NCBI GenBank assembly: GCA_947627195.1
Contig: CANQVC010000019.1
Location: 1-32,504, forward strand
Length of the DNA: 32,504 nt
Source: an uncultured Bacilli bacterium
GTDB lineage: Bacteria > Bacillota_I > Bacilli_A > ML615J-28 > CAG-698
Direction of reading: 5' to 3'
The notes under the pieces were generated by a model. That model saw nothing but the letters and a program-made list of their open reading frames with translations. It had not been told where the DNA came from and did not search any database. Of this stretch, positions 6,574 to 25,152 are shown in pieces. Position 1 is the first letter of the stretch. Each line of letters opens with the position of its first letter. The translations under genes were made by a program, and so were the position numbers.

Positions 6574-7710
6574 ATGGAAAACAATCAAGTAGAAAATAAT
6601 CAAGAAATAAAATTAGATGAAAATAAATTAGATAATAAAAATAATAAAGATAATATTCATCTAATTAGATGGAAAAAAATATTATCATTCATTATTCAAA
6701 CAATGAATGGAATGGCATATGGATTATTTGCTACTTTAATAATTGGGACAATATTTAAAACAATTGGTGAATTTTTTCCTGATGAGTCATTTTTAAAAAA
6801 TGCTTTTAATAGTTTAGGTGTTGGCTTAACATATATGACTGGTTTAGGTATTGGTATTGGAATAGCATGGAGTATGAAGTTTGAAAACTTAAAATTAGTA
6901 TGTTTAGGTATAGCAGGGGGAATTGCTGCATATATGACTAAACCATATGGAACAAAAGTAGGAGATCCCCTTACTATATATTTAGTTGTCATCTTTACTG
7001 CTTTACTTATTAAACTAGTTTTAAGAAAAAAGACACCAGTAGATATAATCTTAATTCCTTTATTTAGTTGTTTTGTCGCTGGAGCAATTACTTTATTAAT
7101 TAGCAGTCCAGTTGGATATATCACAACTCTAATTGGTAAATTTGTGGGAATAGCCACTGAATATCAACCATTCTTAATGGGTATTGTCATTGCTGTTGTT
7201 GTTGGTATGGCATTAACTGCTCCAATATCTTCAGCTGCTATTGCTGCAATGATTTTTATCGCAACAGATGCAACAAATGCAAATGCCCTTGCAATAGCAG
7301 GAGGAGCTGCTGTTGTGGGATGTTCATGTCAAATGATTGGATTTGCCGTTATGTCGAGAAAAGATAACAACATTGGCACAATTATTTCTATTGGTATTGG
7401 TACTAGTATGTTAGAATTTAAAAACATCTTAAAGAAACCAATTATTTGGTTACCTACTATTATAGCTTCAGCTATCTTAGGTCCTATATCGACATGTTTA
7501 GTAAAAGTACAATGTTTAGGAGTAAGTGCAGGAATGGGAACAGCAGGACTAGTAGGGCAAATTGGCACTTTTTCCACAATGGGTAATACATGGCAAACAT
7601 GGGTGGGAATATTTGTCTTACAAATAATTGCCCCAATTATCATTGTTTTACCAATTGATTTATTATTCCGTAAATTTGGTTTAATTCAAAAAGGTGATTT
7701 AACAGTTTAA
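6574..7710 (+). CDS. PTS EIIC-type membrane transporter (PTS_EIIC_2 family)
   Basis: A 378-residue polytopic membrane protein. A hydrophilic Asn/Lys/Glu-rich N-terminal tail of ~30 residues is followed by about nine hydrophobic segments. Glycine-rich stretches such as MAYGLFATLIIGTIFK, TGLGIGIGIAW, GTSMLEF and AGMGTAGLVGQIGT are those I associate with the PTS_EIIC_2 family of stand-alone EIIC-like permeases. No EIIA, EIIB or sugar-metabolism gene is nearby, so the substrate cannot be read from context and it may not work as a classical phosphotransferase. It starts 1 bp after the cinA stop, with GAAGGA (6561-6566) as ribosome site. A terminator ends the ychF-cinA unit after it. Confidence 0.8.
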   Translation: MENNQVENNQEIKLDENKLDNKNNKDNIHLIRWKKILSFIIQTMNGMAYGLFATLIIGTIFKTIGEFFPDESFLKNAFNSLGVGLTYMTGLGIGIGIAWSMKFENLKLVCLGIAGGIAAYMTKPYGTKVGDPLTIYLVVIFTALLIKLVLRKKTPVDIILIPLFSCFVAGAITLLISSPVGYITTLIGKFVGIATEYQPFLMGIVIAVVVGMALTAPISSAAIAAMIFIATDATNANALAIAGGAAVVGCSCQMIGFAVMSRKDNNIGTIISIGIGTSMLEFKNILKKPIIWLPTIIASAILGPISTCLVKVQCLGVSAGMGTAGLVGQIGTFSTMGNTWQTWVGIFVLQIIAPIIIVLPIDLLFRKFGLIQKGDLTV

Positions 7711-7723
7711 AATATAATCAAAG

Positions 7724-7751
7724 ACAATCTTCATATGAAGATTGTTTTTTT
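7724..7751 (+). terminator. Rho-independent terminator
   Basis: A 10-bp inverted repeat, ACAATCTTCA / TGAAGATTGT (7724-7733, 7736-7745), with a tight loop and a T7 run. It ends the ychF-cinA-PTS unit. Confidence 0.88.
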
Positions 7752-7798
7752 GCTTTTAATAAAAATGAATTTGTTAGTAGCAAAAAAGTATATTTTAT

Positions 7799-7827
7799 TT
7801 GCTTTTCCTTTTGATTTTTGGTATAAT
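7799..7827 (+). promoter_or_regulatory. Sigma-A promoter of tex
   Basis: TTGCTT (7799-7804), a 17-bp spacer, and TATAAT (7822-7827), 28 bp before the tex ATG. The TTG that could pass for a start codon at 7799 is in fact the first half of this -35 box. Confidence 0.85.
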
Positions 7828-7855
7828 AGTACTGTTGATTAAAACGGAGGGTAAT

Positions 7856-10111
7856 ATGGTAGAAAATAATTATATCAATGAGCAATTATTGGAAAAAATT
7901 TCCGCTGAACAAAATGTTAAAATAACACAAATTAAAGCAGTTTTACAATTAATTGAAGATGGTGGAACAGTTCCATTTATTGCCCGTTATCGTAAGGAAG
8001 CAACTGGAGGCCTTGACGAAGAAAAGATTAGAGCAATTTATACAGAATGGGAATATGGACAAAAACTTGCTGAACGTAAAGAAGATATAATGCGTCTAAT
8101 TGAAGAAAAAGGTAAGTTAACAGAAGATTTAAAAGTTTCAATTATTAATTCCAATAAATTAAGTGAATTAGAAGATATTTATCGTCCATTCAAAGAGAAA
8201 AAGAAAACTCGTGCTACAGATGCTAAGAAAAAAGGTCTTGATCCTCTTGCTGAATATTTGTTAAGTTTTCCACTTGAAGGAAATGTTGAAGAAGAAGCAG
8301 CAAAATATGTTACTATTAATCCAACAGAAGAACAAGTTAAAGAAGGAACAGTTGTTAAAGATGTAAAAGATGCCCTTCAAGGAGCTGAAGATATCATTGC
8401 TGAAATGATTTCTGATGATGCAAAATATCGTAAATGGATTCGTAGTTTCTTTGAAAGAAAAGCAAAACTTGCCAGTGAAGTAAAAGACATTACATTAGAT
8501 GAAAAAAGAACTTATGAAATGTATTATAATTATGAAGAACCAATTTCAGAAATTAAATCACATCGTGTATTAGCATTAAATCGTGGTGAAGCAGAAAAAG
8601 TAATTCGTGTTTTTATTAAAGAAGATGTCGATACAATCTTAGATTTCTTAAAAAGAAGAGTAGTTGGACGTGATCATGAAAAATCAATTACTTTACCATA
8701 TGTTGTAGATGCTATAAGTGATTCATATAAAAGATTAATTAAATCATCAATTGAACGTGAAATTAGAGCTGATTTAAAAGATAAAGCTGAAGAACAAGCT
8801 ATTCATGTCTTTGGTGAAAACTTAAAGAAATATTTATTAACACCACCAATGAAAGGAAAAACAGTATTAGGAGTTGACCCTGCATTTAGAACAGGATGTA
8901 AATTAGCAGTTGTCGATCCAACTGGTAAATTCTTAGCTAAAGGTGTTATGTATCCTCATCAAAAAAATAAAGAAGAAGTTGTACCAACTGAACGTTTAAA
9001 TGAAGCAAAAGCTATATTTACTAAATTCTTATTAGAATTTAAATGTGAAGTAGTTGCAATGGGAAATGGTACAGCAAGTCGTGAAACAGAACAATTTGTT
9101 TCATCAACATTAAAAGAATTAGAACCAACATTAAAAAATTTACATCAAGATGTTGAATACATTATTGTTAATGAAGCAGGAGCATCTGTTTATTCCGCAA
9201 GTGATTTAGCAAGAGAAGAATTCCCTGATTTTTCTGTTGAAGAAAGAAGTGCTGTATCAATTGCTCGTAGATTACAAGACCCACTATCAGAACTTGTTAA
9301 AATAGATCCAAAATCAATTGGTGTTGGACAATATCAATATGATGTTAACCAAACAAAATTAGAAGATCAATTAGATTTTGTCGTTGAAGGAGCTGTTAAT
9401 AGTGTTGGTGTAAATGTTAATAGTGCCTCTGTATATCTATTACAACGTGTTGCAGGTTTAAACTCTAAATCAGCAAAAGCCATTGTTAATTATCGTGATG
9501 AACATGGAAAATTCAATAATCGTTCAGAACTAAATATTAAAGGAATTGGACCTAAAACATTAGAACAAGCCATTGGTTTCTTACGTATTCCTGATGGTGA
9601 TGAAAAATTAGATATGACAGCAATTCACCCTGAAAGTTATAAAGCAGCTGAAGCTATTTTAGATAAATTAGGATTTACTAAAGAAGCTATTGGTACAGAA
9701 GAATTGAAAGAAAAAATTAAAAACAGCGATCGTCAAGAATTAATGAAAGGATTAGATATTGGTGAATATACATTCAATGATATCTTAGATGCTTTAATAG
9801 CTCCTTTACGTGACCCACGTGATGCTTTTGATAAACCTGTTCTAAGAAAAGATGCTTTAGATTTATCTGATTTACAACCAGGAATGGAATTAGAAGGCAC
9901 AATTCGTAATGTAGTTGATTTTGGCGTATTTGTCGATTGTGGTGTTCATGAAGATGGATTAGTTCATATTTCTAAAATCAAAAAAGGATACATCAAACAT
10001 CCATTAGATGTTGTTAGTGTAGGTGACATTGTGAAAGTATGGGTTGTATCAGTTGATGTTAATAGAAATCGTCTTGAACTTACAATGATTAATCCTAATC
10101 AAAATAATTAA
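7856..10111 (+). CDS. tex: Tex family S1 RNA-binding transcription accessory protein
   Basis: A 751-residue protein with the full Tex architecture: an N-terminal helical region with GTVPFIARYRKEATGGLDE; a YqgF-like RNase H fold with VLGVDPAFRTGCKLAVVD; tandem helix-hairpin-helix motifs (VAGLNSKSAKAIVNYR and IKGIGPKTLEQAIGFLRI); and a C-terminal S1 domain (GTIRNVVDFGVFVDCG...GLVHISKI). Tex proteins bind nucleic acid and act with the transcription machinery; the exact function in Firmicutes is poorly defined. The ATG at 7856 is chosen because CGGAGGG (7845-7851) precedes it and because a longer frame would run through the promoter. It is monocistronic, with its own promoter and terminator, and uses noticeably more CGT Arg codons than its neighbours, as expected of a well-expressed gene. 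Confidence 0.96.
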   Translation: MVENNYINEQLLEKISAEQNVKITQIKAVLQLIEDGGTVPFIARYRKEATGGLDEEKIRAIYTEWEYGQKLAERKEDIMRLIEEKGKLTEDLKVSIINSNKLSELEDIYRPFKEKKKTRATDAKKKGLDPLAEYLLSFPLEGNVEEEAAKYVTINPTEEQVKEGTVVKDVKDALQGAEDIIAEMISDDAKYRKWIRSFFERKAKLASEVKDITLDEKRTYEMYYNYEEPISEIKSHRVLALNRGEAEKVIRVFIKEDVDTILDFLKRRVVGRDHEKSITLPYVVDAISDSYKRLIKSSIEREIRADLKDKAEEQAIHVFGENLKKYLLTPPMKGKTVLGVDPAFRTGCKLAVVDPTGKFLAKGVMYPHQKNKEEVVPTERLNEAKAIFTKFLLEFKCEVVAMGNGTASRETEQFVSSTLKELEPTLKNLHQDVEYIIVNEAGASVYSASDLAREEFPDFSVEERSAVSIARRLQDPLSELVKIDPKSIGVGQYQYDVNQTKLEDQLDFVVEGAVNSVGVNVNSASVYLLQRVAGLNSKSAKAIVNYRDEHGKFNNRSELNIKGIGPKTLEQAIGFLRIPDGDEKLDMTAIHPESYKAAEAILDKLGFTKEAIGTEELKEKIKNSDRQELMKGLDIGEYTFNDILDALIAPLRDPRDAFDKPVLRKDALDLSDLQPGMELEGTIRNVVDFGVFVDCGVHEDGLVHISKIKKGYIKHPLDVVSVGDIVKVWVVSVDVNRNRLELTMINPNQNN

Positions 10112-10117
10112 TATGAT

Positions 10118-10145
10118 AAATGGACTATTTATTAGTCCATTTTTT
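10118..10145 (+). terminator. Rho-independent terminator of tex
   Basis: The stem AAATGGACTA / TAGTCCATTT (10118-10127 with 10133-10142) is followed by T residues, 6 bp after the tex stop. Confidence 0.87.
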
Positions 10146-10175
10146 ATACAACTACATACAAATTTTTATTTTATC

Positions 10176-10204
10176 TATGAAATCTAAATAAAAAGTGATA
10201 TAAT
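10176..10204 (+). promoter_or_regulatory. Probable promoter of the 10237-11892 gene pair
   Basis: A perfect TATAAT lies at 10199-10204. The -35 position (10176-10181, TATGAA) is weak. It follows the tex terminator. Confidence 0.45.
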
Positions 10205-10236
10205 AAACGTAAATAAAGATGAAAAGAGGAATAACA

Positions 10237-10983
10237 ATGAAACAACATGATGCTATAAATCGTCTACTTGAAATATTAACGGAAACAGAAATAATTGAAG
10301 CATGTATGGTTACAGGAGATATTGCTATAGCAAAAGAAACAGAATTTTCCCCAATTATTTTATATTGTGTTGTTCCCAAAGTTATGCAAGTAGTCTTAAG
10401 AAAAGATATTTTACCATTATTTGAAACATATTATCCTGTATTATATTGTGAAGAGGAAAGAAAACCATTATTAAAATATCATGTCATTTATGAAAATGGT
10501 GTTGAATTATTTATGACATGTTGTTTAAAAGAAGAATTACCAAATGATGAAAATAGAATGATTTTATATGATCCTAAACAATTAATAACAAATGAAGTAA
10601 TAATTCCGAAAATAACAAATAAAGATATAGGTAAATTAATGGATCAATTATCTTGTGATTTATTTCACTTTTATTGTAATCAAAATAATTACCCTGAATT
10701 ATTAAAATTAAGTATAAATATCCATAACATTTATTTAAAATTATTAAAATATCAATGTAATATATTTGATATAAATAATAATGATTTAGAAGAATTACCT
10801 AAAGAAGTATTAAAGAAATATTTTGATATAATGAAATTATTAAAATATGATAAATTAATTATATTAGTACAAGTAATAACTAATGAAATAGATCAAATTA
10901 CTAAATCATTTTCTGTTGATTTAATTAGTTTATATCATTTAGATTTTTATCAACATTGTAAGAAATTAATTTTTAGTTTATGA
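10237..10983 (+). CDS. Unrecognised protein, possibly a degenerate nucleotidyltransferase-like domain
   Basis: A 248-residue soluble protein with no signal peptide or membrane span. The first ~100 residues alternate strand- and helix-like segments (CMVTGDIAIA, then PIILYCVVPK, then YHVIYENGVELFMTCC). The order faintly recalls nucleotidyltransferase-fold proteins of the aminoglycoside adenylyltransferase type, but I see no G-S...DxD catalytic signature, so an active transferase is doubtful. The C-terminal half is helical and rich in Leu, Lys and Asn. The ATG at 10237 is preferred to one at 10219 because AAGAGGA lies 6 bp upstream. It is followed 9 bp later by a diacylglycerol-kinase-family gene, so the two are probably cotranscribed. 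The gene is real by length, codon use and ribosome site; the function is unknown. Confidence 0.7.
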   Translation: MKQHDAINRLLEILTETEIIEACMVTGDIAIAKETEFSPIILYCVVPKVMQVVLRKDILPLFETYYPVLYCEEERKPLLKYHVIYENGVELFMTCCLKEELPNDENRMILYDPKQLITNEVIIPKITNKDIGKLMDQLSCDLFHFYCNQNNYPELLKLSINIHNIYLKLLKYQCNIFDINNNDLEELPKEVLKKYFDIMKLLKYDKLIILVQVITNEIDQITKSFSVDLISLYHLDFYQHCKKLIFSL

Positions 10984-20433: not shown

Positions 20434-22089
20434 ATGATTAAAATCCATGTTAATGAAAATAGTTTAGTTAAATATTCTTTTGATGTTTATTTAGATGAAG
20501 AAGATACATTAGAAAATATTGCCCAAAAACTCAATATTAAATGTTATGTTGCGAAAGTAAATAATCGATTAAGAGAATTAACTTATCATCTTAAATCTTC
20601 TTCAACAGTTGAATTTTTGGGTTTAGATGATTTTGAATCTGTTAGGGTTTATCAAACTACATTGCGTTATTTAATTGTTTATGCTTTAAAAGAAATAGAT
20701 CCTAATGCTAATATTTTATTTAGTCATTTTATTTCAAGATCTTTTTATGGCGAAATTAGTAATAATAATCATAAATTTAATGAATCTTATTTAAATAAAT
20801 TAAAAGATAAATTAAATGAAATTATTAATAAAAATATTCCTATTGTAAGAAGAAATGTTTCTAAAAATGAAGCTAATAAAATATATCAAGAAGAACATTA
20901 TTTAGATAAATGCCAAGTATTAGCTTATCGAACTGAAGATATGGTTCATTTATATCAATGTAGTGATTATCAAAATTATATGTATGGTTATATGTTACCA
21001 TCAACTGGTTACATTAAAGATTATGATTTAAAAATGTATTATCCTGGATTTGTTATCCAATATCCACGTAGTGAATTTAAGGGAAAAGTTCCTTCATTTC
21101 AGGATGATCCAACATTTAGTCAAATGATTTTTTCAGCTCGTAAATGGTCAAAACAATGTGGTGTAGAAAACATTGCATCAATGAATGAATTTACATTAGA
21201 TCGTGATTTTGTTGATTTTGTCCATATGTGTGAAACAAAACATAACAACATGTTAGCAGAAATTGGTAATCAAATAAAAAATAATTCTAATATTCGTTTA
21301 GTTGCTATTGCTGGACCATCATCAAGTGGTAAAACAACTTTTTCCAATCGTTTAAGAATTGAATTAATGACAATGGGATTAAAACCTATTATGATATCAA
21401 TGGATGATTATTATTTAAATCGTGAAAATACACCATTAGATGAAAATGGTAATCCTGACTTTGAAAATATTAATGCCTTAGATATTAATTTGTTTAATGA
21501 ACAATTAATGGAATTAATTGCAGGTGATATAGTTACTTTACCAAGTTTTGATTTCAAAGTTGGTAAAAGAATGGTTGGTAAAACAATTCAATTAGAACAA
21601 AATCAACCAATAATAATTGAAGGAATTCATGCCTTAAATGAAACATTAACTAAATTAATTCCCGCAAATCAAAAATATAAAATTTATATAAGCCCAGTTC
21701 CACAAATTAATATAGATGATCATAATCCAATTATTGCCACTGACTTAAGATTACTAAGAAGAATTGTTCGTGATGCGATGTTTCGTAAAACTTCTCCTGA
21801 AAATACATTTAGAATGTGGGAAAATGTGCGAAAAGGAGAATTTAAATGGATTTATCCATGGCAAGCAAGTAGTAATTATGTTTTTAATTCTAGTCTTGCT
21901 TATGAAATTATGGTTATGAAGAAATATGCATTACCAGCTTTACAAAGTATTGATTGTAATAATGAATTCTTTATTCAAGCTAATCGTTTAATTAAGTTTT
22001 TAAAATATTTTAAAGATATTGATGATAAATATGTTCCTTGTAATTCAATATTAAGAGAATTTATTGGCGGTAGTTGCTTTTACGAATAA
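20434..22089 (+). CDS. Nucleoside (uridine) kinase-like protein with N-terminal TGS / ThrRS-like region
   Basis: A 551-residue two-part protein. The N-terminal ~75 residues (SFDVYLDEEDTLENIAQKL) resemble a TGS domain, and the following region (FYGEISNNNHKFNESYL...GYMLPSTGYI...) resembles the second, editing-type domain found in threonyl-tRNA synthetases. The C-terminal half is a P-loop kinase of the uridine kinase/phosphoribulokinase family with Walker A GPSSSGKT near residue 292, then SMDDYYLNRENTPLDENG and LPSFDFKVGKR. Similar fused proteins are common in Clostridia and related Firmicutes and are annotated as nucleoside kinase; the true substrate is not established. AAGGAG lies before ATG. 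It is the last gene before the cotJ operon, and no clear terminator separates them, only three hairpins. Confidence 0.87.
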   Translation: MIKIHVNENSLVKYSFDVYLDEEDTLENIAQKLNIKCYVAKVNNRLRELTYHLKSSSTVEFLGLDDFESVRVYQTTLRYLIVYALKEIDPNANILFSHFISRSFYGEISNNNHKFNESYLNKLKDKLNEIINKNIPIVRRNVSKNEANKIYQEEHYLDKCQVLAYRTEDMVHLYQCSDYQNYMYGYMLPSTGYIKDYDLKMYYPGFVIQYPRSEFKGKVPSFQDDPTFSQMIFSARKWSKQCGVENIASMNEFTLDRDFVDFVHMCETKHNNMLAEIGNQIKNNSNIRLVAIAGPSSSGKTTFSNRLRIELMTMGLKPIMISMDDYYLNRENTPLDENGNPDFENINALDINLFNEQLMELIAGDIVTLPSFDFKVGKRMVGKTIQLEQNQPIIIEGIHALNETLTKLIPANQKYKIYISPVPQINIDDHNPIIATDLRLLRRIVRDAMFRKTSPENTFRMWENVRKGEFKWIYPWQASSNYVFNSSLAYEIMVMKKYALPALQSIDCNNEFFIQANRLIKFLKYFKDIDDKYVPCNSILREFIGGSCFYE

Positions 22090-22090
22090 T

Positions 22091-22149
22091 ACAAACTGTG
22101 TTTGTAATACAAACTTGTAATACAAGTTTGTATTGCAAACTTTGTTTGC
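22091..22149 (+). repeat. Three consecutive hairpins built on a CAAAC/GTTTG motif
   Basis: Hairpin 1: ACAAAC-TGT-GTTTGT (22091-22105). Hairpin 2: AATACAAACTTG-TAATA-CAAGTTTGTATT (22106-22134), a 12-bp perfect stem. Hairpin 3: GCAAAC-TTT-GTTTGC (22135-22149). They directly abut, begin 1 bp after the kinase stop, and have no T run. Confidence 0.85.
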
Positions 22150-22159
22150 ATTGTGCCCA

Positions 22160-22186
22160 GTCATTTCTTATTCTCCTTCATATAGT
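22160..22186 (+). promoter_or_regulatory. Possible sporulation (sigma-E-like) promoter of the cotJ operon
   Basis: CATATAGT (22179-22186) matches the sigma-E -10 consensus CATACAnT at most positions, with GTCATTTC (22160-22167) as an approximate -35. The 11-bp spacing is shorter than usual. In Bacillus the cotJ operon is sigma-E controlled, and no TTGACA/TATAAT pair is present here. Weak evidence. Confidence 0.35.
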
Positions 22187-22209: not shown

Positions 22210-22608
22210 ATGAATAATCAAAAACATTTTCGTGATATTTCACGAAACAAAAATAATCGAAATTTAATTCCTTTTGATGAAGCATTAGGAAAAGGAACAA
22301 TCTTTAGAAATATCTATGTTCCTTATAAAGTAGATCCTCAAGCACCAATTCCTAATGATGAAAAAGAAAATTTGTTATTGAATATGCAAAAGTATGCTCT
22401 TGCAGTTCAAGATATTAGTTTATATTTAGATGTTGAACCTAATAATAAAGATGCAATTGAATTATATAAAGAATGTTTAGAGAATTTAAAGAATACCAAT
22501 GAAGAATATGAAGCTAAATATGGTTCATTAACTAAAACTTCCAAATATGTGAATGGATATCCATGGCAATGGGATAAAAATAATTGGCCATGGTTAATGG
22601 AGGGATAA
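22210..22608 (+). CDS. cotJB: Spore coat CotJA-CotJB fusion protein
   Basis: A 132-residue protein that joins two families normally encoded separately. Residues ~18-42 (LIPFDEALGKGTIFRNIYVPYK) match the core of CotJA (EALRKGTLWKALYDPY in Bacillus). Residues ~55-130 match CotJB: a helical segment (YALAVQDISLYLDVEPNNKD), then YEAKYGSLT and the hallmark YPWQWDKNNWPW near the C terminus. CotJ proteins belong to the inner spore coat, with CotJC. CGGAGG is present upstream, with about 13 bp between the site and ATG. The gene ends 1 bp before cotJC, the usual operon order. The fusion looks genuine: the frame is continuous and there is no internal ribosome site between the halves. Confidence 0.9.
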   Translation: MNNQKHFRDISRNKNNRNLIPFDEALGKGTIFRNIYVPYKVDPQAPIPNDEKENLLLNMQKYALAVQDISLYLDVEPNNKDAIELYKECLENLKNTNEEYEAKYGSLTKTSKYVNGYPWQWDKNNWPWLMEG

Positions 22609-22609
22609 T

Positions 22610-22726
22610 ATGTGGGCTTATAAAAAGATGTTATGGTTTCCAATAAATATCAAAAAGAAAGATTTAAAATTAGCTAAGGCTTTAGTTACACAATATGGGG
22701 GCCTTTACTCAAATAAACACAAATAA
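22610..22726 (+). CDS. cotJC: cotJC 5' part, interrupted after codon 30
   Basis: ATG at 22610, 1 bp after the CotJA-JB stop, opens a frame reading MWAYKKMLWFPINIKK and, later, LAKALVTQYGG, the N terminus of CotJC (MWVYEKKLQYPVKIKN in Bacillus). At 22702 the homology stops: the frame continues for only seven codons of element sequence and ends at TAA 22724-22726. The coding part that belongs to CotJC is 22610-22701. The break falls exactly at the 10-bp core repeated at 24671-24680, where homology resumes. Joining 22610-22701 to 24681-25152 gives 564 nt with no stop, a 187-residue CotJC. As the genome stands, only a 38-residue peptide would be made. Confidence 0.93.
   Translation: MWAYKKMLWFPINIKKKDLKLAKALVTQYGGLYSNKHK
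22692..22701 (+). repeat. Left attachment core of the cotJC element
   Basis: AATATGGGGG, identical to 24671-24680. Flanks differ on both sides (C before, C after; the right copy has G before, T after), so the exact crossover lies within these 10 bp. It overlaps CotJC codons Gln28-Gly31. Confidence 0.9.
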
Positions 22727-22754
22727 AAAAGCCTAGCTTAAATATTAGGCTTTT
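22722..22754 (-). terminator. Terminator of the recombinase gene
   Basis: The stem AAAAGCCTA / TAGGCTTTT (22727-22735, 22746-22754) overlaps the recombinase stop codon. The A run on the plus strand before it gives the T run for minus-strand transcripts. It may also stop transcripts entering from cotJ. Confidence 0.82.
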
Positions 22755-24186
22755 ATTGGTAAAATTCAATTTGTTTTATACCATTTTCTTTATCAACTTC
22801 TATATATTTAATAAATTTATTAATAAATTCTTTTTTCTCTAATGGTAATAAAGAACACCATATATCAATTATAGATTTTGTTATTATTTTAAATTCAGTG
22901 AGTTTGTTTAGATTTACAAGCTCACTTTTTTTATTTTCTCTTTCTTTTATTTTTATATTTATTTCTTTTAAATCATTTTCTAAATTTATTAATATTTCTT
23001 TATAATCAGCTTTACTAATAAAATCATCAAGAATCATATAATGAAGTTTTTTCTTGCGATTATTTATTTTTTCAATATTTTCTTTAAGTTTTATTATTTC
23101 TTTATCAATTTCATCAATTTGTTTAAGGTTTATTTTAATTTTAACTTCATAAATATTATTAAAATATTTATTCAAATAATTAATAAAAAAATTTTCCATT
23201 AAAGTTTGATTTATTCCTTTATTATTACATCTACCTTGAACTGTTCTATGACATTTATAATACAATATATAATTATTTCTTTTTTTATTAAATGTTGATA
23301 AAGTGGTAAGTCTTTTATGACAAGAAGAACAATATAATTTATTTTTAAATATATAATTATTATTACCAATCTTTTTTGGAAACTTTTTTCTTTCATTTGT
23401 ATATTTTTTAATTTTCTTAAATTCTTCAATTGTAAATATTGGTTCAATATTATTGGCTTTTAAATAAATTGGCTCTTTGTTTTTAGGATGATATAAGAAA
23501 TATCCTGAATAATACCATGCATGAGTTAACATGTAATTAATAGAATTTTCAGCGAATTCATTTCCTCTTTTGTTTCTTAATCCTTCTAAATTAAGTTTCT
23601 TACAAATTTTATTTGAACCATATCCATCAATATGCATTTGAAATATTCTTTTCACAATCTTAGCTTCATCTTCATTAATTGAATACATTTTTGTATTAGA
23701 ATCATAATTATATCCTAAGGGAACTCTACCTGTATACCATCCTTCTTTAGCTCTTTGTTCCATTGCAACAGCTACTCTTTCTCCTATTCTTTCTCTTTCA
23801 TATTGGGCAAATATACCTTTGATATTTAGATTTAATCTATCACCAGCAGTAGAAGTAGTTGTTTGATCAGTTACACTTAAAAATTCAATTTTATAATGTT
23901 TAAAATTATCAATTAAAGTCCATAAATCAACAATATCACGAGTTAATCTATCTAAACAATATACTAATACTATATCAAATTTATTGTCTTTAATATCTAA
24001 AAGAAGTTTTTTTATTTTTGGTCTATTTAAGTTTTTACCTGAATAACCATCATCTATATAAAAATCATATATTTCATAATTATGTTTAATAGTCCATTCA
24101 ATAATATTTCTCTTTTGGGCTTCAATTGAAAAACCTTCATTTGCTTGTTCATCTGTGGATACTCTAATATAAGCTGCTACTTTCAT
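22753..24186 (-). CDS. Large serine recombinase (SpoIVCA-like site-specific integrase/excisionase)
   Basis: A 477-residue large serine recombinase. The N-terminal resolvase domain (about 1-145) has the catalytic Ser10 in YIRVSTDEQ, arginines in YCLDRLTRD, and GIFAQYERERIGER. The recombinase domain follows (VPLGYNYD...IFQMHIDGYGSNKI...LNLEGLRNKRG), then a zinc ribbon (LYCSSCHKRL and YKCHRT...RCNNKG), and a long Lys/Glu-rich coiled coil near residues 355-435. This is the layout of SpoIVCA and phage serine integrases. It is transcribed opposite to cotJC, with its 3' end next to the left core. AGGAGA precedes ATG. The role is recombination between the two cores at 22692 and 24671. No frameshift or missing catalytic residue is seen, so it should be active. 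Confidence 0.96.
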   Translation of the reverse strand: MKVAAYIRVSTDEQANEGFSIEAQKRNIIEWTIKHNYEIYDFYIDDGYSGKNLNRPKIKKLLLDIKDNKFDIVLVYCLDRLTRDIVDLWTLIDNFKHYKIEFLSVTDQTTTSTAGDRLNLNIKGIFAQYERERIGERVAVAMEQRAKEGWYTGRVPLGYNYDSNTKMYSINEDEAKIVKRIFQMHIDGYGSNKICKKLNLEGLRNKRGNEFAENSINYMLTHAWYYSGYFLYHPKNKEPIYLKANNIEPIFTIEEFKKIKKYTNERKKFPKKIGNNNYIFKNKLYCSSCHKRLTTLSTFNKKRNNYILYYKCHRTVQGRCNNKGINQTLMENFFINYLNKYFNNIYEVKIKINLKQIDEIDKEIIKLKENIEKINNRKKKLHYMILDDFISKADYKEILINLENDLKEINIKIKERENKKSELVNLNKLTEFKIITKSIIDIWCSLLPLEKKEFINKFIKYIEVDKENGIKQIEFYQ

Positions 24187-24207
24187 TTTAACATCTCCTC
24201 TATATAA

Positions 24208-24256
24208 AATATATATAATATATATATTATATATATTAAATTATTAAATAATTTAA
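24208..24256. repeat. Two AT palindromes upstream of the recombinase gene
   Basis: A perfect 30-bp palindrome of A and T only (24208-24237) overlaps by 2 bp a 21-bp inverted repeat TTAAATTATT-A-AATAATTTAA (24236-24256). Both lie 22-70 bp upstream of the recombinase ATG, in the promoter/5' leader region, and could be an operator or RNA hairpins. No clear sigma-A or sigma-E promoter is visible there. Confidence 0.8.
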
Positions 24257-24435
24257 TTACAATATTGACAATTTTCTTAATTTTAAGCCTTAAATTTGCG
24301 TTTAAATCGTTTTTATAAACATAAACCATTAAATAAATGAGTAAAAAGAATTGGCAAAATAAATTAATTTTTTAAAATTTATATTTATGTATAGGACAAA
24401 TATTGTATTGAATAAAATAAAAAAGAGGATTAAAA

Positions 24436-24555
24436 ATGGTAGAAGAAAAAGAAAAAATAAATAATATTGATACTTTAGTTTATGAAATAATGAAATGGTA
24501 TATTGAAAAAAGATATCCTGAATATGAAATTGTGTCATTCGAAGAAAAAAAGTAA
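24436..24555 (+). CDS. 39-residue protein inside the cotJC element; candidate excision factor
   Basis: A short ORF with a good ribosome site: GAGGA (24425-24429), 6 bp, ATG. It encodes MVEEKEKINNIDTLVYEIMK followed by WYIEKRYPEYEIVS and FEEKK: acidic and basic residues alternate with a central amphipathic helix, no cysteine. It lies divergent from the recombinase and reads toward the right core, in the same direction as cotJC. Serine integrases need a small directionality factor to excise; examples are the 58-residue SprB of SPbeta and the product of a small gene in the C. difficile skin element. I see no sequence match to either, so the role is inference from size and location. It could also be a chance ORF. 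Confidence 0.6.
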   Translation: MVEEKEKINNIDTLVYEIMKWYIEKRYPEYEIVSFEEKK

Positions 24556-24670
24556 CTATAAAATAATATGATGGTCTTGACAATGCCTAAAAAAGTAAAA
24601 ATGATTTATTATTAGAAATAAGCAATTTTCTAAAATAACTAAAACGTTTCATTTATTTTGCATTTTAGTG

Positions 24671-24680
24671 AATATGGGGG
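24671..24680 (+). repeat. Right attachment core of the cotJC element
   Basis: AATATGGGGG, the second copy of the core at 22692-22701. Downstream sequence is cotJC (P-Y-G-E-L-S); upstream sequence is element DNA. Confidence 0.9.
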
Positions 24681-25152
24681 TCCATATGGGGAACTATCTG
24701 CAGCTTTACGTTATTTAAATCAAAGATATACAATGCCAGATAATAGAGGTAAAGCTTTATTAACTGATATTGGTACAGAAGAATTAGGACATGTTGAAAT
24801 GATATGTACAATGTATTATCAATTAACAGCTACTGCAACAATTGAAGAATTAAAAGAAGCAGGATTATGTTGCAATTATGCTCAACATGGTGGAGAAATA
24901 TTTATGACTGATTGTAATGGTGTACCAATGACAACAGCTAATATTGGTGCAACAGGTGATCCATTAGCTGATTTATCTGAAGATATGGCGGCAGAAGAAA
25001 AAGCTCGTGCAACATATGAACATTTAATGGATATGACTGATGATCCTGATTGTTTAGCTGTATTAGCATATTTACGTACAAGAGAATTAGTTCATTTTAC
25101 TCGTTTTAAAGAATTATATGATTATTATAAAGGCAACAATGTTAACGAGTAA
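24671..25152 (+). CDS. cotJC: cotJC 3' part (manganese-catalase-like spore coat protein), no start of its own
   Basis: This segment continues CotJC from the core: YGGPYGELSAALRYLNQRYT, TDIGTEELGHVEM, DMAAEEKARATYEHLM and RTRELVHFTRF. These are the family's metal-ligand motifs; in the joined 187-residue protein they include Glu35, Glu65, His68 and the C-terminal E and H of RELVHF. CotJC is related to manganese catalases and lies in the spore coat. The frame can be traced back to a TTG at 24658, but those upstream codons are element sequence and no ribosome site precedes it. No frameshift or stop has accumulated, and every expected ligand is present, which suggests the split gene is still under selection. 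Joined length matches the ~189 residues of Bacillus CotJC. Confidence 0.94.

Follow-up and report, generated by a model that had tools for sequence, protein, structure and literature searches.

The cotJC gene encodes a sporulation-associated protein, and in an uncultured Bacilli bacterium (NCBI GenBank assembly GCA_947627195.1) we found it broken in two, which raises the question of whether the gene has been lost or is interrupted by DNA that the cell can remove. The interruption lies on contig CANQVC010000019.1; the whole stretch analysed, positions 1 to 32,504, is referred to here as the window. The gene breaks off 92 nt after its start at 22610, and the remainder picks up at 24681 and ends at 25152. 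Between the two parts lies an inserted element of 2.0 kb with a gene for a large serine recombinase (LSR). Many elements interrupt cotJC, at a small number of recurrent codons, and this is the smallest of those seen here.

The split gene and its inserted element

The features of the locus, by window position, are as follows.

22210-22608, plus strand: cotJB, upstream gene of the cotJ operon (PF12652 CotJB, E 8e-19)
22610-22701, plus strand: 5' part of cotJC, 30 codons and 2 nt, up to the Tyr-Gly-Gly codons
22692-22701, plus strand: left core repeat AATATGGGGG, proposed crossover GG at 22700-22701
22702-24680: inserted element, 1,979 bp
22702-22729: left attP arm (predicted); the two arms show symmetry at 17 of 28 positions
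22731-22754: terminator-like hairpin (plus strand -10.6 kcal/mol, z -2.7; minus strand -9.6, z -1.7)
22753-24186, minus strand: LSR gene, 477 amino acids (P0001; PF00239, PF07508, PF13408; phrog_95 integrase, E 6e-112)
24436-24555, plus strand: open reading frame (ORF) of 39 amino acids, candidate recombination directionality factor, a guess from size and place
24651-24680: right attP arm with the core side (predicted by circle-type joining of the inner ends)
24671-24680, plus strand: right core repeat AATATGGGGG, proposed crossover GG at 24679-24680
24681-25152, plus strand: 3' part of cotJC including the stop codon (PF05067 Mn_catalase from profile position 29, E 2e-43)

The two 10-bp copies of AATATGGGGG lie in one codon register, and rejoining the flanks gives a stop-free product of 187 amino acids. 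Across all 187 residues this product is 94% identical to the CotJC of G001, a sister species. In a set of 43 genomes from the order, none but G001 shares the genus of the window. In G001 cotJC is uninterrupted and its surroundings are those of the window gene: cotJB lies upstream and the genes downstream are the same. The empty site of G001 matches the rejoined window sequence at 51 of 63 nt. Read directly, the joints thus bear out an earlier note on this DNA, which had described a 1.98-kb insert removable in frame, one 10-bp core at both joints and a joined CotJC of 187 residues. The note had also raised the matter of an uninterrupted allele in a sister, which G001 supplies, and of a second intact cotJC, which we rejected, as the genome (98% complete, 78 contigs) has no PF05067 match besides the split gene.

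Because the repeat is in codon register and cotJC is broken at the same codons in two other genomes (G017 and G183, described below), the interruption is more than chance, and site-specific integration of the element into cotJC is well supported. An assembly artefact is unlikely, since the joints keep register and the same codons are interrupted in independent lineages. The crossover probably falls at the GG common to the three complete pairs of joints at the Tyr-Gly-Gly codons, which we call site A. With the insert in place, the 5' half runs on for 8 more codons and then meets a TAA. Separate translation of the 3' half from a TTG at 24658 was rejected: the frame is open, but no Shine-Dalgarno sequence is visible upstream.

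The insert has a GC content of 20.5%, against 25.8% for the window. Its LSR has the Resolvase, Recombinase and Zn-ribbon domains, is of the expected size class (about 450-550 amino acids) and is apparently intact; R8, S10, D79, R80 and R83, which we take to be the catalytic serine/arginine set, are conserved in the LSR of G017. The hairpin sits where the truncated cotJC frame and the LSR gene both end. No phage structural, packaging or replication genes were found in the insert, which besides the LSR holds only short ORFs. One of these, the 39-amino-acid ORF, is preceded by a Shine-Dalgarno-like sequence; it has no Pfam match, and its match to phrog_3674, a family of unknown function, is weak (E 0.019). 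The earlier description of an LSR and little else therefore holds for the intact LSR and needs to be widened by this ORF and the hairpin.

We predicted attP by joining the inner ends of an element as in a circle and comparing the arms around the GG. In the predicted attP of G017 the arms agree at 19 of 28 positions (0 of 20,000 random pairs were as good), and in that of G183 at 17 of 28. An arm motif, ACACAAATAAA, spotted by eye, is common to the window and G017. Upstream of cotJB, at 22087-22160, there is a near-palindromic repeat run of the type TACAAACTTGTAATACAAGTTTGTA.

Recurrent interruption sites and their recombinases

The window element had been presented as a single, isolated case, which did not hold once other genomes were searched. 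PF05067 was present in 21 of the 43 genomes of the order, the window counted, and in two of them, the window and G017, the match began only at profile position 29. G017 belongs to another genus of the same family. The two halves of its cotJC lie on different contigs, and the 3' half adjoins an LSR gene (46% identity to the window LSR), a metalloprotease-like gene and a phage-type repressor-like gene, a prophage-like arrangement. In G183, from another, more distant family, a 3.7-kb element with the core TTTGGTGGTGC occupies the same codons and carries an LSR 27% identical to that of the window and a PemK/MazF-like gene.

Across the class, 117 of 395 genomes had a PF05067 match, and after the joints were read cotJC was found interrupted in 9 of the 117. 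The breaks fell at site A in the window, G017 and G183, at site B (Thr-Glu-Glu-Leu) in G384, G360, G296, G101 and G085, and at site C (Ala-Ala-Glu) in G214. The joint of G085 was read on one side only, and the halves of G101 are on separate contigs, like those of G017. G296 and G214 each carry another full-length member of the family. Left out of the count were G136 and G102 (contig ends), G267 (profile 14-196, frameshift-like) and weak partial, paralogue-like matches. A phylum search (match in 66 of 392 genomes) covered the same class or nearer, mostly repeated the class scan and was left uncounted. At site B of G384 (L044, L045, L056), two distinct cotJC 3' halves stand beside non-cotJC DNA, but a single 5' half was detected. 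An LSR match at E <= 1e-60, with at most four candidates scored per genome, was obtained in 4 of the 395 class genomes: the window, G017 and two at 33-34% identity.

When named genomes were scanned with the LSRs of the window and G017, at least 563 relatives were recovered. Of the 80 loci kept, 3 have a broken cotJC and 77 show no cotJC in the fetched DNA. A fourth site, D, near codon 61, was seen in Pelotomaculum propionicicum and a Peptococcaceae metagenome-assembled genome; in Paenibacillus popilliae the gene is broken near codon 126, with one side seen. The small elements in cotJC measure 2.0 kb (window), 3.7 kb (G183), 4.5 kb (L082), 6.4 kb (G214), 6.6 kb (G296) and 9.1 kb (L092), and their cargo is varied. 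The element of P. propionicicum (L092, 2606-11696) carries, by eye, sbcC-/sbcD-like genes next to the recombinase. At L035 (G000:C17:10000-29000; 6837-10861, minus strand), three consecutive serine-recombinase genes have neighbours that resemble, by eye, conjugation genes of an integrative element.

We then turned to the phage contigs of IMG/VR. None of 19 LSR relatives there had cotJC in the fetched DNA. A scan with nine aligned CotJC proteins returned 32 contigs, a set biased toward prophage borders. In 31 of the 32 the cotJC homology ends inside the contig, at recurrent conserved codons, and in L183 it ends at the contig end. An LSR lies in the fetched DNA of 21 of the 32. A control scan with the window's ribosomal protein L20 found no relatives; the control is weak because a single protein was used instead of an alignment. 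We read 22 site-A joints (L169-L181, L191-L195, L197-L199 and L200; L196 was left out). Homology begins at the Tyr-Gly-Gly codons in 21 of them and about two codons later in L180. In L172 the Tyr codon on the element side is replaced by a stop codon, which is to be expected if host DNA lies only beyond the crossover.

Some copies are broken more than once. Eight contigs (L191-L195 and L197-L199) hold a cotJC piece of about 37 codons that begins at site A and stops at site B or close to it; for L192 the second break rests on 12 nt. In L198 (2849-2968) and L199 (2757-2888) two convergent LSR genes, one per joint, flank a cotJC piece of about 37-40 codons. L194 is broken at A, B and C, and L181 at A and C. 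In total, 9 contigs are broken at two or more sites, one of these at three, with L200 (A and D) and L196 (A and B) as possible additions.

The exact crossover is less sharply marked at some joints. In G017, G384, G360 and G296 the longest in-register run is just 3 nt, so that these cores are weak, and the shared GG in G017 was our choice. The five site-B pairs with both joints have in common a GA in codon 67, where they rejoin in frame. This crossover was picked after the rule of taking the longest run had given a truncated product in 2 of 11 pairs (G360 and L194), both of which rejoin at the GA.

We constructed a maximum-likelihood tree of 53 LSRs, 33 beside cotJC and 20 others; the latter came from scans with the window LSR and are therefore nearer to it than a random sample would be. 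Site labels require 7 changes on the tree, compared with a mean of 27.6 when shuffled. The recombinases at site D form a single clade of four, and those at site B fall into a clade of 10 and the pair L198/L199. At site A there are three separate lineages: one is a clade of 12 with G183, another joins the window and G017, and the third is L180. This indicates that distinct LSR lineages arrived at the same cotJC codons. The recombinases of L180 (joint near 7622-7637) and L049 (G214) are sisters with breaks at different cotJC codons and GCAGA in both joints; one specificity may thus have two landing places in the gene.

Excision, parasitism or loss

The explanation that we favour, with modest confidence, is that the window holds a minimal element excised in the mother cell to restore cotJC. 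On this view an integrative element lies in the Tyr-Gly-Gly codons and is most probably the pared-down remnant of a phage or island that targeted cotJC. Its recombinase would integrate by crossover at the GG in the second Gly codon, so that the reverse reaction would restore the frame exactly. While the element is in place a whole CotJC presumably could not be made, because the 5' half stops 8 codons on, the hairpin follows and the 3' half has no good start. In the terminal mother cell the LSR and a small directionality factor, perhaps the 39-amino-acid ORF, would excise the element as a circle. That cell is where excision would be expected by analogy with skin, SP-beta, gin and yin, the known elements compared below. 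The element, its repeats, its site, its in-frame reversibility, the reuse of its codons by other elements and the sporulation genes of the host can be read from the DNA; phage descent, the directionality factor, excision and its timing are proposed.

The host genome encodes Spo0A and SpoIVA. It also has adjacent sigE-like and sigG-like genes downstream of a spoIIGA-like ORF, and an unsplit sigK-like gene; these sigma names come from similarity and gene order, the top match of 273 bits being below the curated sigma-K cut-off of 299. Given these genes, cotJC probably belongs to a working sporulation programme. The literature supports the association of CotJC with sporulation (PMC11222575, PMC12122855).

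We compared the rates of non-synonymous and synonymous change (pN/pS) against G001. The ratio was 0.080 for the 3' half of cotJC and 0.077 for the 5' half, and for cotJB, nrdG and nrdD it was higher, at 0.318, 0.237 and 0.110. The window lineage had no excess of residue changes in CotJC (3 versus 5, with 3 undecided). Between the 3' halves of L172, L174 and L177, which come with LSRs of 64-86% identity to one another, the ratio was 0.16-0.22. The earlier note had taken the stop-free 3' part as a sign of selection, and hence of excision. The constraint is indeed strong, but in both comparisons it may be older than the insertion, and against G001 it mostly reflects such possibly earlier time, so that it is compatible with excision but no proof of it. 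The note's further claim of a minimal, developmentally excised element is supported as to integration by the LSR, in-frame restorability and the presence of sporulation genes; that excision occurs, and when, is suggested by analogy.

Several results weigh against excision in the mother cell. Neither a joined nor a circular form was seen, the window junction being absent in one exact scan of IMG/VR; junction strings of two relatives matched two loci each, all on contigs known as integrated. The insertion may be young, and intact halves would then need no selection. Sigma-E/sigma-K promoter-like sites upstream of the 39-amino-acid ORF or the LSR were no better than shuffles; the motifs were the Bacillus subtilis consensus, which may not suit this host, and none stood out upstream of the window's cotJB either. 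A 35-amino-acid ORF beside the right joint of G183 has a sigma-K-like promoter matching at 10 of 10 positions (1% of shuffles), among about 20 motif tests made. No convincing relative of the 39-amino-acid ORF was found in Pfam, phrog or the fetched loci. The symmetry of the window attP is modest: when segments of the element are paired at random, 0.5% of the pairs attain it, and elsewhere in the AT-rich window there are centres with higher scores, up to 24. The relatives of the window LSR retrieved from named genomes and IMG/VR mostly do not lie beside cotJC: a cotJC piece occurs in 3 of 101 loci (L060-L160), and none of those three LSRs is sister to that of the window in the tree. Plain phage integration accounts for the larger cotJC elements.

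A broader proposal, to which we give somewhat less than an even chance, is that cotJC in many spore formers is a gene with removable DNA introns, with conserved codons owned by particular recombinase lineages, up to three sites occupied in one copy and joining in the terminal mother cell only. The window would then contain the smallest unit of this survey, made up of a domesticated recombinase and scarcely anything beyond its att sites.

Less likely than the favoured explanation, though a serious candidate, is a plain parasite in a safe harbour: cotJC would be a conserved target dispensable for growth, exit would be rare and random, and spores would be made without CotJC. Many of the other insertions are prophage- or island-like with varied cargo, the window element has no detected sporulation promoter, and LSRs are known to share targets without a developmental reason, such as the magnesium chelatase and prolyl isomerase genes (PMC10083194). 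The recombinases of L172, L174 and L177 were also used to scan IMG/VR. This gave 25 loci, of which 24 were examined (L227 was left out). The gene cotJC adjoins 7 of these (L204-L206, L209, L210, L224 and L225), four being the contigs of L172, L174, L175 and L177 again, and is absent beside the other 17. In line with a plain parasite, some of the 17, with recombinases of the large site-A clade, carry attP-like dyads: a clear GG-centred dyad follows the recombinase in L211 (20 of 25) and L223 (18 of 25). That of L213 scores 13, no higher than integrated loci; several others seem, by eye and unscored, to hold this site in the opposite orientation, L207 and L218 end at the recombinase, and L208 has a different core. 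Yet an element pared down to its recombinase gains little as a parasite, and the recombinase has been kept open. Nor have close copies spread through the class, as far as the candidates scored in each genome go, and multiply broken copies keep their pieces open and in frame.

It is improbable that the element is a dead relic, unable to leave, with cotJC lost in the lineage: its sole candidate directionality factor has no convincing relatives and skin excision in Clostridioides difficile requires such a factor (PMC5025042), but both cotJC halves and the recombinase are open and residue changes are not in excess.

Comparison with known intervening elements

Elements of this kind are already known, and what seems new is cotJC as the gene, the several sites, the multiple occupancy and the 2-kb size. 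Skin elements, for example, are far larger than the window element. The sporulation genes known to be interrupted are sigK, spsM, spoVFB, spoVR, gerE and yabG (PMC5025042, PMC4191935, PMC10747680, PMC5595907). Skin in the sigK of B. subtilis and C. difficile resembles the window element in having an LSR, a sporulation gene as its target, short end repeats and in-frame restoration (PMC5025042). It differs in that the gene encodes a sigma factor, not a coat enzyme, and that its excision has been proven; the C. difficile element has a directionality factor shown to be specific to the mother cell, whereas the window's candidate is a guess. SP-beta in the spsM of B. subtilis shares a spore-envelope gene, an LSR and precise joining (PMC4191935). 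However, SP-beta is an active prophage and the window element has no phage genes, so that G017 is the closer parallel to SP-beta.

The gin element in the gerE of B. cereus ATCC10987 is, like the window element, non-phage with a serine recombinase, and its overlap is 9 bp; it spans 28.6 kb with 31 genes and three recombinases, in contrast to one recombinase in 2.0 kb (PMC5595907). The same kind of element is found as yin in the yabG of C. botulinum, vfbin in spoVFB and vrin in spoVR (PMC10747680). These are prophage-like and apparently use one site each, whereas cotJC has several sites and several recombinase lineages. The prophage phi027 of C. difficile R20291 lies beside a cotJC-family gene and is reported as a neighbour, and not as an interruption, of a 678-bp ORF (PMC11222575, PMC12122855). 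A split cotJC was unreported in the literature searched, which excluded preprints and most subscription journals, and the main text of an LSR survey contains neither 'cotJC' nor 'catalase' (PMC10083194).

We therefore regard the window element as a minimal variant of the known intervening elements of sporulation genes, in a multi-site cotJC hotspot. The list of sporulation genes interrupted by removable DNA gains a coat-enzyme gene, and cotJC emerges from the sequences as a recurrent, multi-site target of several recombinase lineages. The cases supply new pairs of recombinase and att site with known targets. If excision is developmental, some cells would need two or three separate recombinations within cotJC to make a single coat protein, and the element, at 2 kb, would come near to the minimum for an excision unit in nature.

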